DNA of 64,000 nt, taken from Vibrio gallaecicus. GTDB taxonomy: Bacteria; Pseudomonadota; Gammaproteobacteria; Enterobacterales; Vibrionaceae. Location of the stretch: assembly GCF_024347495.1 (NCBI RefSeq), contig NZ_AP025491.1, forward strand, positions 1,426,001-1,490,000. Direction: 5' to 3'. Made by a program: the position numbers and the translations under genes. The notes under the pieces are model-generated. The model had not been told where the DNA came from and ran no database searches. It saw only the letters and a program-made list of their open reading frames with translations. This document shows, one piece after another, positions 7,719 to 13,617 of this stretch (position 1 is the first letter of the stretch; the number at the start of each line of letters is the position of its first letter).

Positions 7719-8150
7719 ATGAAAATTTGTGGTGTTGAAATTAAAGGCAATGATGCAATCATCTGTCTCCTTTCGCTTTCTGACGGTGTATTTAACATTC
7801 CAGACTGCCGAGTTTCGAAGGTTTCTATTGGTGATGCAAACGACACACAGAAAATGAAAGACTTTCAATTTTCTTTTGCAAAACTTATGGAAGATTACCA
7901 AGTAGACAAGGTTGTTATTCGCCAACGTCAAACTAAAGGCAAATTTGCTGGCGGTGGTTTTGGTTTCAAACTTGAAGCGGCGATTCAACTGATTAACGAC
8001 CTTGATGTCGTGGTAGTTGCTCCAACTCAAATTAAAGAAAACCTTAAGCGTCATCCATTAATGATGAAGTTTAAAGAAACAGGTCTTAAGCAATACCAAG
8101 AAGCTCCGTTCACAACGGCTTATGCTTGCTTAATGGACAAAAGTGCTTAA
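7719..8150 (+). CDS. DUF3010 family protein
   Basis: A 143-residue protein that I recognise as DUF3010 from its opening MKICGVEIKGNDAIICLLSL and the VDKVVIRQRQTKGKFAGGGFGF core. The start resembles the first strand of an RNase H/actin-like fold (glycine-rich V-E-I-K-G-N-D), but no catalytic role is established and none is claimed. The ATG has a good TAGG ribosome-binding site. It is a single-gene unit closed by two hairpins, the second a very stable terminator shared with the convergent yidZ gene. Confidence 0.75.
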   Translation: MKICGVEIKGNDAIICLLSLSDGVFNIPDCRVSKVSIGDANDTQKMKDFQFSFAKLMEDYQVDKVVIRQRQTKGKFAGGGFGFKLEAAIQLINDLDVVVVAPTQIKENLKRHPLMMKFKETGLKQYQEAPFTTAYACLMDKSA

Positions 8151-8325: not shown

Positions 8326-9279
8326 CTAAAATTGATATAAAGATTTAATAGTTTCTCTTAGCCAAATAATCACCGGATTATAAGCGTTTCTTTTGTGCCA
8401 TAACATAGTGAAAGGAATGAGTAATTTATCTTTGTATTCATCATTAAGTGGAATGGGCAGACACACTAAATTTGGGTGCAATTGCTCAGTGTATTTCGAA
8501 CAATACTGAGGTGCCGTGGTCATCATATGATGATGAGGTTGCGCTGCCATAAACAGTGACTGCTCAAAGCTCGCCATCGTCAATGCAATGTTTCTCTTCA
8601 GCTCAAGATCAATCAAAACTTCATCTAACGCCCACGTTTCACTTTTCTCCCACACGATGTTGATATGTGGGTAGCTTAAGAACGTGTCCATATTCCATTC
8701 TTGCTGTAAAGCGGGGTGATCTTTTCGCAGATAGACAACTGGCATATCATGAAATAGCACTTCAAAGTCAATAAAGTAAGGCAAAGCACTCAGCGATTCT
8801 TTCGACCTTGGGTGTGTTTCTCTTCCTGAAAAGCCGATATCTGATTCACCACGTACTAAAGCATCAATCGAGTCATAATCCCAACTGCGCGTTTTAACTT
8901 TGGCATTGGGGTATCTTTGATAGGTTTCTTTCAGTAGATCATTCAACATGATCAAAAACAGGGGCGATTCGACCTCCAAGCTCAAGGTAATGTCGCTGGG
9001 CGTTTCATCCCCTCTTTTTGTCAAAATTTGGCTGCCGATTTGTAACCAATCTTGTAGATCATGCGCCATGCTCATTGCCAAAGGGGTTGGAGCTAACCCT
9101 TGAGGCGTTTTGACAAATAGCGGGTCTTCAAACCAATCTCGCAATTTGGTGAGTGATTTACTGACAGTGGAAGGTGTAACATTCAGCTTCTTAGCCGTTT
9201 TAGAAACACTTTGCTCTTGCAGTAGCAATTGCAAAGTGAACAGTAAATTCAAATCAAGACGCGCGAGTGATTTCTTCAT
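8326..9279 (-). CDS. yidZ: LysR-family regulator, YidZ-like
   Basis: A LysR-family regulator closely matching the E. coli YidZ sequence as I recall it: a LDLNLL opening, [20 protein letters not shown] in the helix-turn-helix, IGFSGRE-HPRS in the effector domain, and LLWHKRN-NP near the end. The start is placed at the second Met (9279) because it aligns with the MKKS start of YidZ; an ATG six bases upstream is possible. It overlaps the end of mdtL by 26 bases, so translation is probably coupled. E. coli also has mdtL next to yidZ, so the pair is conserved. YidZ has been linked to anaerobic nitric oxide protection in E. coli. Confidence 0.85.
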
Positions 9280-10507
9280 AGTCATTTTGAGTGCAAGATG
9301 GACGTACCCATAATATTAAAGCCAAGCCAATAACACCACCACCAGCAAGAATAAACGCCAGCATTCCCAATGCGCTCACTCCGATCACACCCATAAACCA
9401 GATATAAAATGCAGAAGTGCATACTTGTGCGACGCCCAAAATAGAACTCGCAACACCGGCTCGTTTCGAATAAGGACTCAATGCTTGACTCATTGTGACG
9501 CCAAAACCTAAAGAAAAACCAGCAGATACGAGCCCAAAACCGATGAAGGTGACAGCATGATCAAGTTGATAACTAAATGATAAACTGACAAGGCTTGCAG
9601 CCGTCACCAATAATAATTGAGCCGCCGCCATCAGCGTTCGTTGCTTAAAAATAGACAATGCAAATGGTGCAGAAAAAGACACCAACATACTGACGAACGC
9701 CGTGCCTGCCATCACCGCAGAATAGCCAGCTCGGTCTAAACCTAATTCGCTCATCAATAGCATGGGAGAGACATTCACGTAGGTTAAAATTGCAGTTACT
9801 GCCAAAGATGTCATGACCACGCGGCTAACAAAGAAAGAGGTCTTAAACGATTCCACTTTCCAAGCATCATCAACTGGCTGATCATCATTCGCGCTATCTT
9901 TCGAACTGTTTTGGGGCGGCATCCCCTTAACCAAAGAAGTATTTGTTGAAGGAATCCTTTTTGAAAAGGTCTCTTTTAAAACAAACAGAGATAGCGCCAC
10001 CACCACACCCATTCCTGTCATAGTGACAAACAAGCTCTGCCATGGGTATTGCGTCATGATCAAATGCCCAAGAACAGGCGCAAGTACAGGAACAATACAA
10101 GTGATACCATTCAGCATCGACAAGATTTTCGCGCGTTTTTTATCGTCTAAAACATCCCGAAGGATCGCAAAAGCCACAACATAGCAGGAGCCCGCCCCAA
10201 TGCCTTGCACAAATCGAGCGATCAAGAAAAACTCAGCATTCTCAGCGGTCCCCCCAGTGAAAGAAGCGATAGAAAAAATGACTGCACCAGCGATGGCAAC
10301 TGGCTTTCTGCCAATCGCGTCTGCTAATTTTCCAGCAAACAGCATAGTAGCAGCCATACCGGCGAGATAAATGGAAAAGGCGATATGGAGCTGAGCTTCA
10401 GAGGCGTGTAAATCAGCCGCTATTTGCGGTAAACCTACCAGATATAAGTCAATTGCGGTTGGATAAAGCAGCACTAACGCAAAGCTGCAAAAAAGAAAAC
10501 GTAACAT
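9254..10507 (-). CDS. mdtL: MFS multidrug efflux transporter, MdtL-like
   Basis: A 417-residue major facilitator with about 12 membrane helices. It matches E. coli MdtL in its first helices ([20 protein letters not shown]) and in the segments [24 protein letters not shown] and [11 protein letters not shown]. MdtL exports drugs such as chloramphenicol by proton antiport. A ~45-residue hydrophilic stretch near residues 180-225 is the central cytoplasmic loop, longer than I would expect. The ATG has a GAGG ribosome-binding site. It is followed without a gap by yidZ. A perfect 8-bp inverted repeat lies about 100 bases upstream and could be its operator. Confidence 0.87.
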
Positions 10508-10605: not shown

Positions 10606-10628
10606 GGTATGTCCGATTACGACATACC
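10606..10628. promoter_or_regulatory. Inverted repeat upstream of mdtL (operator or hairpin)
   Basis: GGTATGTC-N7-GACATACC is a perfect palindrome about 100 bases upstream of mdtL. It is followed on the plus strand by GTTTTTG. It could be a regulator site (YidZ is the obvious candidate) or the terminator of an unseen plus-strand transcript. The half-site spacing does not exactly fit the usual LysR T-N11-A. Confidence 0.45.
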
Positions 10629-10682: not shown

Positions 10683-11495
10683 TTAGTCAGTTGCTAACGG
10701 CTTTAGATCTGAAAATGAAGCTTCCAGTTTAATACCAAATTGAGTTCGAAGTGTTTCTAGATAAGACTCATTTTCTTCTAACACCGTTTCTTCCGTGATG
10801 CCATTCACTACCTTTTTCATCGTGTTATTAAAAATAGTCACAATGCCATTCTCAATTGGAAACGCAGCAATACGAGAAGTCACAAACAAAGACTTAGGGT
10901 GATTCGACACATAAAAATTACCATATGATTTATCCGCGTCATACACGTTGGTCATATCAAGACTGTACAAGCTTTGCCAAATAAAGCCTTCATTGTCGTC
11001 AGGTAACTTCACTTGAAGCATGTAACCAAATTGCTCAGTTTCTATAAAACGAAACGTTTGAATATCAGTAGAAAGCTCTTTATCAGTGACTAAAGGCAAA
11101 GGAGAACGAGGTGTGTGAGAACCAAAGCCCGCATCAACAATCCATAACTGCTCATCTAGGTTAACGACACTGACTTGGTGGCTTCTTCCGGTAGGCTCAC
11201 CAGCTAAATGTACTCTTCCCAATAATGCTCTCGTGTCAAAACCGGTCGCTTTCAAAGTTTTCAAAAGAAGACCATTTAGTTCAAAACAATAGCCACCGCG
11301 TTCTTTATGAATCAGTTTGTTGATGAGTTCTTCATCACTCAGTGAAATACTTTTCCCTAAGGCAATATCGAAATTCTCGAATGGTATTCTTCGGTGTTGA
11401 GCGTTGTGTAAAGCCTTCAACCCTTCTTCGGTTAAAGCTGGTTTGGAAGTAAGCCCTACTTTTGTTAGATAGCTATCAAAGTCACTGTTATTCAT
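10683..11495 (-). CDS. Arylamine N-acetyltransferase
   Basis: A 270-residue NAT enzyme with the full catalytic triad in family context: Cys70 in RGGYCFELN, His106 in GRSHQVSV, and Asp121 in WIVDAGFG. NATs transfer acetyl from acetyl-CoA to arylamines, hydrazines and hydroxylamines in the cytosol. Length and motif order are normal. A GGAGGG ribosome-binding site precedes the ATG. The upstream promoter carries a SoxR-type palindrome in a 19-bp spacer, suggesting induction by redox-active compounds, which would suit an enzyme of aromatic amine detoxification. Confidence 0.92.
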   Translation of the reverse strand: MNNSDFDSYLTKVGLTSKPALTEEGLKALHNAQHRRIPFENFDIALGKSISLSDEELINKLIHKERGGYCFELNGLLLKTLKATGFDTRALLGRVHLAGEPTGRSHQVSVVNLDEQLWIVDAGFGSHTPRSPLPLVTDKELSTDIQTFRFIETEQFGYMLQVKLPDDNEGFIWQSLYSLDMTNVYDADKSYGNFYVSNHPKSLFVTSRIAAFPIENGIVTIFNNTMKKVVNGITEETVLEENESYLETLRTQFGIKLEASFSDLKPLATD

Positions 11496-11557
11496 TGTAT
11501 CCCTCCAGAAATTTTCGATAAGTGATTAGTTCTTTCGTGAACCATACCAATGTCGGC

Positions 11558-11588
11558 ATCATAAAACTTCAAGTTAACTTGAGATCAA
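11558..11588 (-). promoter_or_regulatory. SoxR/MerR-type promoter of the NAT gene
   Basis: On the minus strand, TTGATC (-35, 11588-11583) and TATGAT (-10, 11563-11558) are separated by exactly 19 bases. The spacer holds the palindrome TCAAGTTAACTTGA (11569-11582). That core is identical to the E. coli SoxR box at soxS, and the overlong spacer is the MerR-family signature. The predicted start is ~55 bases before the NAT ATG. Confidence 0.75.
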
Positions 11589-11784: not shown

Positions 11785-11817
11785 AAAAGGTAAGCACTAA
11801 AGAAGAGAGTGCTTACC
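11785..11817 (-). terminator. Terminator of the yjfI-ygiC operon
   Basis: On the minus strand, GGTAAGCACT pairs with AGTGCTTACC around a nine-base loop, followed by a run of seven T. It begins seven bases after the ygiC stop codon. Confidence 0.9.
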
Positions 11818-11824
11818 TAATTTG

Positions 11825-13006
11825 TTAATCAAGAATAATATGAGGCAAGTAACGCGACATATCTTGTGTCACTAACGACCGGTCTTCTCGAATTGAAATG
11901 CCAGCGGGTTCATCATTGATCAACCAACTGCCCACCAATGTGTAGTTATCACCAAACTTTGGTAAAGGGTGGAAAGCTTGAATGATATGCCCCTCCTCCC
12001 CATACGGTCCTTCAGTATCTAGCACCAATTTATTATCCCGTACTACCTGTATATTGGCACCTTCACGAGAAAAAAGCGGCTTAATCACATGGTCTTTTAG
12101 CTCTGCATTTTTTAGGCTTTGTAGCTTAGGATCATCAGAAAAATAAGAAGCCAGCAAGTTAGGATGGTTAGGGAATTTCTGCCATAGCAGGGGAAGCAAC
12201 GCTTTATTCGACAAGATCGATTTCCACATCGGTTCTAGCCAGTTCACTTTCGCGGTATGCAGGTGCTTAGCGTACTCTTCTTGAAACATAAATTCCCAAG
12301 GGTACAACTTAAACATCCAACGAATAAGGTTATCTTCTGAATCAGTAAATTCACCGTCTTGAGTTAACCCTATATCTTCAATATGAACAAACTTAGTGTC
12401 GAGCCCAGCTTCAATGGCGCAATCTTGCATGTACTGCACGGTCCCGCGATCTTCTTCAGTGTCTTTACAACACGAAAAATGTAATGTTTGTCCCGGTTGC
12501 AACCTAGATAGCTCTTGGAATCGCGCCATCATTAGCTCTTGCAGCAAGTTAAACTGGTCTGAGTCGCGTCTTAATTTCCCAGACTTCACTTGGTCTTCTA
12601 GCCAAAACCATTGCCAGAATCCAGTTTCAAACAGAGAAGTCGGGGTATCTGCATTGTTCTCATAGAACTTAGCAGGGCCATTACCGTCATAAGCTAAATC
12701 AATACGTGAATAGAGAGAAGGTTCTTTACGCATCCATGAATTTTGGACTTCTTGCCACATGGCTTCAGGGATTTGAAAGCGCTTTAACCAGAACTCATCT
12801 TTAACCACCATGTCGACCACCTCAAGACACATTTCATGGATCTCTTGAGTCGGCTGTTCAAGGTCTTGCTCGATCTGTTTAAGCGTAAACTGATAATAAG
12901 CAGTTTCATCCCAATAAGGTTCTTCATACATGCTATGGAAGCCAAAGCCGTATTCCGCGGCTAAGTGCTTCCAATTTTTGCGGGGGGTCGAGCTCAGTCG
13001 AAGCAT
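11825..13006 (-). CDS. ygiC: Glutathionylspermidine synthase-like ATP-grasp protein, YgiC/YjfC family
   Basis: A ~393-residue protein matching E. coli YgiC/YjfC: SLYSRIDLAYDGNGPAKFYE, LENNADTPTSL-like and EDRGTVQYMQDC segments, and the C-terminal KPLFSREGANIQ, GPYGEEG and SLVTQDMSRY segments. It carries the C-terminal ATP-grasp ligase domain of glutathionylspermidine synthetase but lacks the amidase half; its real substrate is not established. I place the start at 13006 (MLRLSS) because that ATG overlaps the ygiB stop codon as TAATG and aligns with the E. coli start; an in-frame ATG at 13018 also exists. It is the last gene of a six-gene operon. Confidence 0.87.
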   Translation of the reverse strand: MLRLSSTPRKNWKHLAAEYGFGFHSMYEEPYWDETAYYQFTLKQIEQDLEQPTQEIHEMCLEVVDMVVKDEFWLKRFQIPEAMWQEVQNSWMRKEPSLYSRIDLAYDGNGPAKFYENNADTPTSLFETGFWQWFWLEDQVKSGKLRRDSDQFNLLQELMMARFQELSRLQPGQTLHFSCCKDTEEDRGTVQYMQDCAIEAGLDTKFVHIEDIGLTQDGEFTDSEDNLIRWMFKLYPWEFMFQEEYAKHLHTAKVNWLEPMWKSILSNKALLPLLWQKFPNHPNLLASYFSDDPKLQSLKNAELKDHVIKPLFSREGANIQVVRDNKLVLDTEGPYGEEGHIIQAFHPLPKFGDNYTLVGSWLINDEPAGISIREDRSLVTQDMSRYLPHIILD

Positions 13007-13617
13007 TATCCGCCCCAACTCTTACTAGAGCTCTTAGAACTGCTCCAACTTGATTTAGCAGAGACTGTTGAACCGAAACCGCCGCGAGAAATGGTTCTTT
13101 TCGCCGTTGCTTTCGGTTTTAAATCCTCCCGACTGACCGAGATTTTGCCACGCTTATACGTTTTACCGTAGTTACGTCCATCAGAAGAAATCCAATCACC
13201 GTAAAACACGCTATTTCGGTAGGTAGAAGTGAACATTGGCTGTGAATAATGACGTCTGTCATCTATAAGACGGCTGAACATAAAGCCAGCCATTGCAGGC
13301 ATAAACCAATTGTTCTGCGGCGCAGCAACACAACCACTGAAACCAAACTCACTCGCGCAGTCATTCATTGACTTAAACTTAGGTGCGGTGCGATCAGCTT
13401 CTATTAACGCTTCTTGATAAGCAGTTTGACACTCCGCAGTATAGCTAGGGTGATCGCTAATACATTCATCGATAGTACCGTAGATATTGGTTTGTACTGA
13501 ATCATCACTGCAACCAGAAATCATCGCGGTGGTTACGGCAACTGAAATTGGCGCTAGGCTAAATTTACGCCAGTTTTTACGCATCTCTGGCAGAATTACA
13601 TTTTGGCTACGTTTCAT
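13006..13617 (-). CDS. ygiB: DUF1190 lipoprotein, YgiB/YjfM family
   Basis: A ~203-residue protein with a basic N-terminus, a hydrophobic stretch and a lipobox-like ISGC (cysteine ~36), so probably a lipoprotein. It shares DUF1190 features with E. coli YgiB: DECISDHPSYTAECQTAY, RTAPKFKSMNDCASEFG, FMPAMAGFMFSRL, and a serine/glycine-rich tail preceded by RGGFGSTV. The start at 13617 follows an AGGAGG ribosome-binding site; the upstream in-frame start at 13641 lacks one. Stop and ygiC start overlap. Function is unknown; its conserved pairing with YgiC suggests it delivers a substrate or anchors the enzyme's pathway at the envelope. Confidence 0.85.
   Translation of the reverse strand: MKRSQNVILPEMRKNWRKFSLAPISVAVTTAMISGCSDDSVQTNIYGTIDECISDHPSYTAECQTAYQEALIEADRTAPKFKSMNDCASEFGFSGCVAAPQNNWFMPAMAGFMFSRLIDDRRHYSQPMFTSTYRNSVFYGDWISSDGRNYGKTYKRGKISVSREDLKPKATAKRTISRGGFGSTVSAKSSWSSSKSSSKSWGG

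Follow-up and report, generated by a model that had tools for sequence, protein, structure and literature searches.

The window analysed here is a 64,000-nt stretch of Vibrio gallaecicus DNA (NZ_AP025491.1, positions 1,426,001-1,490,000, forward strand), and coordinates given without a contig label are those of the window. The minus strand of the window contains nat (10683..11495), which encodes an arylamine N-acetyltransferase (NAT) of 270 residues. The nat product carries an Acetyltransf_2 domain (PF00797, 215 bits), and its alignment to 2bsz (arylamine N-acetyltransferase 1) contains the C (RGGYCFE), H (RSHQ) and D (VDAGFG) motifs, whose residues we take to be the Cys-His-Asp triad of NAT. 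The score of the product against PRK15047 (N-hydroxyarylamine O-acetyltransferase) is 147 bits, far below the curated cut-off of 493, and consequently the protein is not assigned to this equivalog. A GGAGGG sequence at 11501..11506 (minus strand) probably serves as the ribosome-binding site of nat. Upstream of nat, on the same strand, is a gene (11825-13018) that contains a GSP_synth domain and is followed by an inverted repeat, GGTAAGCACT...AGTGCTTACC, and a TTTTTTT run on the minus strand (11789..11817). This repeat was read by eye as the likely terminator of the upstream gene; it is absent from the list produced by the terminator scan, the limit of which is exceeded by its loop of 9. The presence of a hairpin and T run after the upstream gene suggests that nat is probably transcribed as a unit of its own. 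On the other side of nat, a hairpin (GGTATGTC...GACATACC, 10606..10628) lies between nat and an MFS gene (9254-10507, minus strand) and was scored as terminator-like on the plus strand. The scan returned 1 terminator-like site versus a shuffle mean of 1.3, such that this hairpin may be due to chance; alternatively, it could act on the MFS-LysR pair (8326-10507), as terminator or as operator.

A SoxR-type promoter is located upstream of nat at 11558..11588 on the minus strand. The promoter is made up of a -35 hexamer (TTGATC, 11583-11588), a 19-nt spacer (11564-11582) and a -10 hexamer (TATGAT, 11558-11563), reads TTGATC-TCAAGTTAACTTGAAGTTT-TATGAT from 11588 to 11558, and is separated from the nat start codon by 62 nt. 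The spacer length falls within the 19-20 nt expected of a SoxR-dependent promoter. Within the spacer is an exact 14-nt palindrome, TCAAGTTAACTTGA (11569..11582), which is the predicted SoxR operator core and which we take to be identical to the operator core at E. coli soxS. These observations confirm the proposal, made in the sequence-only reading of this DNA, that a -35/-10 pair with a 19-bp spacer containing the SoxR-box core precedes the NAT gene. The V. gallaecicus site is weaker than most, and it deviates from those of its relatives in the right half, which reads GAAG instead of GAGG (AG in place of the outer GG), and in its -35 sequence, TTGATC. A scan for ordinary sigma-70 promoters with 16-18 nt spacers identified none between 10300 and 11900.

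The promoter was evaluated using a matrix of 31 positions derived from 27 promoters that adjoin soxR in other genomes. The training sites were chosen from 30 soxR loci by their nearness to the E. coli operator, and no nat promoter was knowingly included. Three of the 30 loci (L096, L100, L105) contributed nothing, as every site in them differs from this operator at more than 3 positions, and the hexamers of two of the 27 training sites (L117, L124) are poor. At the bottom of the training set are scores of 20.0 and 30.7, and the E. coli soxS promoter scores 40.0. On this matrix the nat promoter scores 25.8, versus 3.4 for the runner-up anywhere in the window on both strands. A score of 25.8 is never attained when the window is shuffled 200 times with dinucleotides preserved (top shuffle 23.3). 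Taken by itself, the 14-nt palindrome carries less weight than the whole 31-nt promoter. At up to 3 mismatches, the palindrome has 7 matches in the window versus a chance mean of 5.1, which is no excess. The exact 14-mer occurs once across the 200 window shuffles. The 5.13 Mb genome contains two exact copies, the second of which is within a flagellin ORF, indicating that the palindrome by itself is no proof of a SoxR site. This flagellin copy (C1:2464136; L008 1501-1514) was rejected as a candidate, being coding and having a best matrix score of -13.6 in its locus. Two near-exact palindromes (C2:758811 and C2:1662242) were also rejected, as neither matches the promoter pattern at 3 mismatches and their maximum matrix scores are -2.0 and -9.0, respectively.

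The sequence-only reading had stated that there is no soxR in the window, and this holds for all 64 kb. The gene on which the proposed link depends was found elsewhere in the genome (G000:C2, approximately 1677493-1677978; TIGR01950, 194 bits, cut-off 116.9). The encoded protein contains MerR domains, with the MerR-type HTH, and aligns over nearly its full length with E. coli SoxR (2zhg; E 6e-40), including the SIR..GNQRRY stretch. The four cluster cysteines are present in the CxxCxCx5C arrangement (CIGCGCLSMKKC, aligned with CIGCGCLSRSDC of 2zhg), as expected for the ligands of the [2Fe-2S] cluster. A Bcr/CflA-like MFS gene (TIGR00710, 193 bits versus a cut-off of 201) lies immediately 3' of soxR. 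Upstream of soxR there is only a degraded palindrome with 5 mismatches, and no matrix promoter was identified at this locus, where the best score is 1.9. The genome has seven places that encode MerR domains, which include one SoxR, one ZntR and one CueR. The MerR-domain proteins of L003, L004 and L006 score below every curated regulator cut-off among the matches listed. L006 (G000:C2:930241) and L007 (C2:1035695) contain identical MerR-like ORFs of 98 residues, which are apparently truncated and repeated, while L003 (1480-2667; G000:C2:1307247) encodes a protein of 395 residues that combines a MerR HTH with a methyltransferase-like part.

A search of the V. gallaecicus genome with the promoter pattern at up to 3 mismatches returned 5 places versus 4 for the reversed control, indicating that a 3-mismatch search is at the level of noise. 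The three best sites have 1 or 2 mismatches and are located before a VOC-family gene (C2:1152367), an MFS gene (C2:235492) and nat, the nat site having 2 mismatches. Besides nat, the predicted regulon in V. gallaecicus comprises an MFS efflux pump and a protein of the VOC family (glyoxalase/bleomycin-resistance fold). The MFS protein is 57-65% identical to 7 proteins encoded divergently from soxR in other vibrios, suggesting that soxR seems to have moved in the V. gallaecicus lineage while the pump retained its site. No reductase was found among the genes at the three sites, and nat is behind its own box. All three sites (C2:1437558, C2:1152367 and C2:235492) have AAG in the right half where most relatives have AGG, and it is possible that the operator has drifted along with SoxR in this species.

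The specificity of the promoter pattern was also probed across the genus. At no more than 1 mismatch, the pattern occurs in 46 of 61 genomes (96 sites), versus none of 61 for the reversed pattern. Downstream genes were inspected for 30 of the 96 sites, one per genome, and 29 of these have a downstream ORF. By similarity, these ORFs comprise 7 MFS, 4 NAT, 12 VOC-family, 4 VOC-like and 2 other genes. Pfam confirms 2 of 3 reference proteins for the VOC-family class; the VOC-like class has no Pfam match over the cut-off, the two members checked giving no match (L190) and 24.5 versus a cut-off of 27 (L198). Judged by sequence, this set of genes has the make-up of a SoxR regulon devoted to small-molecule handling. 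The VOC-like ORF of L190 (1012-1455) has a C-terminal part that is seemingly out of frame. One of the two other genes, in L202 (G209:C79), resembles questin oxidase (PF14027) and is divergent from a gene that by eye resembles window ORF 7719-8150.

Conservation of the promoter before related genes was assessed across the Vibrionaceae. A protein search identified NAT in 80 of 296 genomes (82 places), and together with L012 these places make up 83 loci, V. gallaecicus included; L012 and L014 are taken as the same genome. A NAT search restricted to named genomes returned a single locus. A SoxR promoter lies within 250 nt upstream of NAT at 55 of the 83 loci, at distances of 54-139 nt from the estimated start, and 34 of these direct sites outscore that of V. 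gallaecicus. All but one of the 55 direct sites score above the top of 2,490 shuffles (16.1), the exception being L081 (8.3); the highest score among 83 in-gene controls is -6.5. At L089 the box is approximately 345 nt upstream of NAT. In ten further cases the promoter serves NAT via an operon: at nine loci NAT comes second, after an oxidoreductase-like gene with a box of its own upstream, and in L048/L204 NAT is third in a box-FMN reductase-MFS-NAT arrangement. The search of other vibrios suggested by the sequence-only reading thus finds the same promoter at 66 of the 83 loci (65 of 82 without the duplicate). The operon partners that were checked (L038, L053, L055/L129, L083 and L204, plus L154 and L156 from other families, drawn from 12) all match PF03358 (7/7). 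One Vibrionaceae locus, L129 (the same as L055), contains soxR followed by a box-FMN reductase-NAT unit.

The promoter is found with NATs as distant as 29% identity, and its range takes in other genera as well as a few other families. Because the loci are not independent, the NATs were clustered at 70% identity; 21 of the resulting 32 clusters have the promoter throughout, 2 are mixed and 9 are without it. In L012 (Vibrio sp. 99-70-13A1), whose NAT is 91% identical to that of V. gallaecicus, all 31 nt of the promoter are identical, while the alignment is lost beyond approximately 20 nt upstream of the promoter. The box was not seen at 17 of the 83 loci (L016, L023, L024, L027, L036, L037, L045, L046, L047, L049, L050, L052, L056, L058, L059, L079 and L084), 14 of which are in genomes that have soxR. 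Longer upstream DNA at L016, L027, L037, L045, L046, L049, L050, L052, L059 and L084 still reveals no box; as this covers 10 of the 17 loci, 66 of 83 is a lower bound. The NAT of G050, which was missed by the protein search and recovered with the domain model, also has no box. In L016, L023 and L024, NAT lies just downstream of an ORF that by eye resembles an AraC-type regulator, which is possibly an alternative means of controlling nat at these loci.

Among the 296 Vibrionaceae genomes, 217 have soxR, including 76 of the 80 genomes with NAT versus 141 of the 216 without it (Fisher p 4e-8, with no correction for kinship). The soxR gene is missing from four NAT genomes, three of which (G015, G057 and G043) are also boxless; the fourth, G048, is a draft and has the box. 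Outside the Vibrionaceae the promoter is found at 7 of 55 NAT loci, 6 by matrix score. An order-level sample, in which 29 of 30 places were counted (a NAT fragment with stops in G515 was left out), yielded 4 loci with a SoxR promoter, 2 direct and 2 in operons. A class-level sample yielded 3 of 26 loci, or strictly 2 of 26, as L225 fails on score. The scores of L219 (12.0) and L225 (-0.9) on the Vibrio-trained matrix are below the shuffle maximum, and both sites have 0-1 mismatches to a loose operator pattern. In these two samples, every non-family genome with a box-bearing NAT has soxR (7/7), versus 15 of 45 with a boxless NAT (p 0.001, or 0.004 without L225). Furthermore, the box-nat unit adjoins soxR in three of these genomes: the box separates divergently oriented soxR and nat genes in L255, soxR is divergent from box-VOC-FMN reductase-NAT in L156, and soxR is tail to tail with a box-FMN reductase-NAT operon in L256. 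Family f19, which probably corresponds to the enterobacteria, contributed 11 NAT loci from 10 genomes to the order-level sample; no box was found at any of them in the DNA read, and 9 of the 10 genomes have soxR. In L254 (4931-6324; G460), an ORF that by eye is nitroreductase-like overlaps the start of NAT with no SoxR box, and the SoxR box of that genome is before a VOC-like gene beside soxR. This arrangement fits reduction followed by acetylation without SoxR.

Taken together, the soxR gene in the genome, the promoter at 66 of 83 family loci and the box-nat units beside soxR in three genomes outside the family support the SoxR-NAT link that the sequence-only reading had claimed. Direct activation of nat by SoxR is predicted from these sequence data with a probability of roughly 0.87. 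Promoter anatomy, the presence of soxR, conservation, co-occurrence and operon linkage are observed in the sequences, and binding, the direction of control, the inducer and the substrate are predictions.

Two other explanations of the promoter were weighed. The site could be a coincidence, a palindrome of no special meaning that lies in AT-rich intergenic DNA and is read by no regulator, as might be suggested by the second exact copy in the flagellin ORF and by the single 14-mer in the window shuffles. The strand, spacer and distance of the nat site are all right for a promoter, however, and the recurrence of the promoter before most family NAT genes, as well as its complete identity in L012 although the DNA further up is unalignable, makes coincidence very unlikely, to the point that it can almost be disregarded. 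Alternatively, a ZntR-like, CueR-like or uncharacterised MerR-family activator could read the promoter, in which case nat would answer to a metal or other effector. MerR activators generally use spacers of 19-20 nt, and the genome has seven MerR-domain places to draw upon. Yet ZntR and CueR have operators of different sequence, three of the remaining MerR-domain proteins (L003, L004 and L006) are below the curated cut-offs among the matches listed, and the nat sites match sites beside soxR and are seen outside the Vibrionaceae only in genomes with soxR. Based on the family scores and the soxR-side training set, ownership of the site by another MerR regulator is unlikely, with only a slim chance of being correct.

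A third alternative accepts control of nat by SoxR and concerns the role of the enzyme, proposing that NAT acetylates an endogenous amine or serves secondary metabolism under redox stress. NAT homologues have been tied to secondary metabolism in other microbes (PMC11213898), and the SoxR proteins of Streptomyces and Pseudomonas respond to endogenous antibiotics (PMC4146615). The regulon partners, in contrast, are efflux pumps, VOC-family proteins, FMN reductases and a questin oxidase-like protein, which suggest the handling of foreign aromatic compounds, and no biosynthetic cluster was noticed beside nat on reading through the flanks. A role of this kind is judged less likely than not, and retains more weight than either alternative to SoxR itself.

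Activation of nat by SoxR would proceed via a mechanism modelled on the E. coli SoxR-soxS case, in which SoxR holds an over-long promoter and distorts it when oxidised so that transcription starts. First, SoxR would sit on the palindrome within the over-long 19-nt spacer. Next, a redox-active compound would oxidise the [2Fe-2S] cluster of SoxR, and the oxidised protein would distort the DNA such that the -35 and -10 elements align and RNA polymerase starts nat. Finally, NAT would acetylate aromatic amines or hydroxylamines belonging to, or formed by reduction from, the compound that trips SoxR. With less confidence than is attached to control by SoxR, nat may belong to a small detoxification regulon in which NAT detoxifies redox-active xenobiotics. 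The pairing of NAT with FMN reductase in several operons suggests a reduce-then-acetylate chemistry, and it can tentatively be proposed, with the balance leaning slightly against it, that SoxR runs a conserved module for reduction and acetylation. An FMN reductase would convert a redox-cycling quinone-imine, nitro or azo compound to an amine, NAT would cap this amine to prevent its re-oxidation, and the MFS pump would export the product. The box-FMN reductase-NAT, box-FMN reductase-MFS-NAT and soxR|box-VOC-FMN reductase-NAT operons are as this module predicts.

To our knowledge, few natural substrates have been established for bacterial NATs. SoxR senses redox-active small molecules, and its control of nat at most of the Vibrionaceae loci examined would narrow the hunt for such substrates to redox-active aromatic compounds. 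It would also extend the range of SoxR targets to a conjugation (phase II) enzyme. If the reduce-and-acetylate module is correct, it would give bacterial NATs a natural role in disarming the redox-active aromatic antibiotics of competitors.

The closest parallel in promoter architecture is presumably the E. coli soxS promoter, in which the operator core and 19-nt spacer are the same as those of the nat promoter. Unlike in E. coli, where SoxR acts on soxS, SoxR is predicted to control nat directly in V. gallaecicus. The structure of E. coli SoxR bound to DNA is known (PMC5045206). A NAT has also been described from Vibrio vulnificus, (VIBVN)NAT, which is an arylamine N-acetyltransferase with a catalytic Cys that is active on hydralazine among other substrates (PMC7847940). 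It is comparable to the product of the window nat as a Vibrio NAT, and the words 'promoter' and 'SoxR' are absent from the main text of that paper. A regulon table for Shewanella lists SoxR, with 'acetyltransferase' absent from the main text (PMC3223726). The sole match containing both 'SoxR' and 'arylamine N-acetyltransferase' in the literature searched is a study of E. coli morphology (PMC11446759). No link between SoxR and an arylamine NAT was found among the matches listed; an earlier in-silico prediction of such a link, in subscription papers on predicted SoxR regulons or in RegPrecise, is possible. The non-enteric SoxR regulons of P. aeruginosa and S. coelicolor consist of a few pumps and enzymes that modify small molecules as opposed to a global stress response, and their named targets include transporters and oxidoreductases, together with a monooxygenase and an epimerase/dehydratase; the word 'acetyltransferase' is absent from the main text (PMC4146615). 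The regulon predicted here is similar in combining pumps with modifying enzymes, and is distinguished by the identity of the enzymes that recur in it, which are NAT, VOC-family proteins and FMN reductases.
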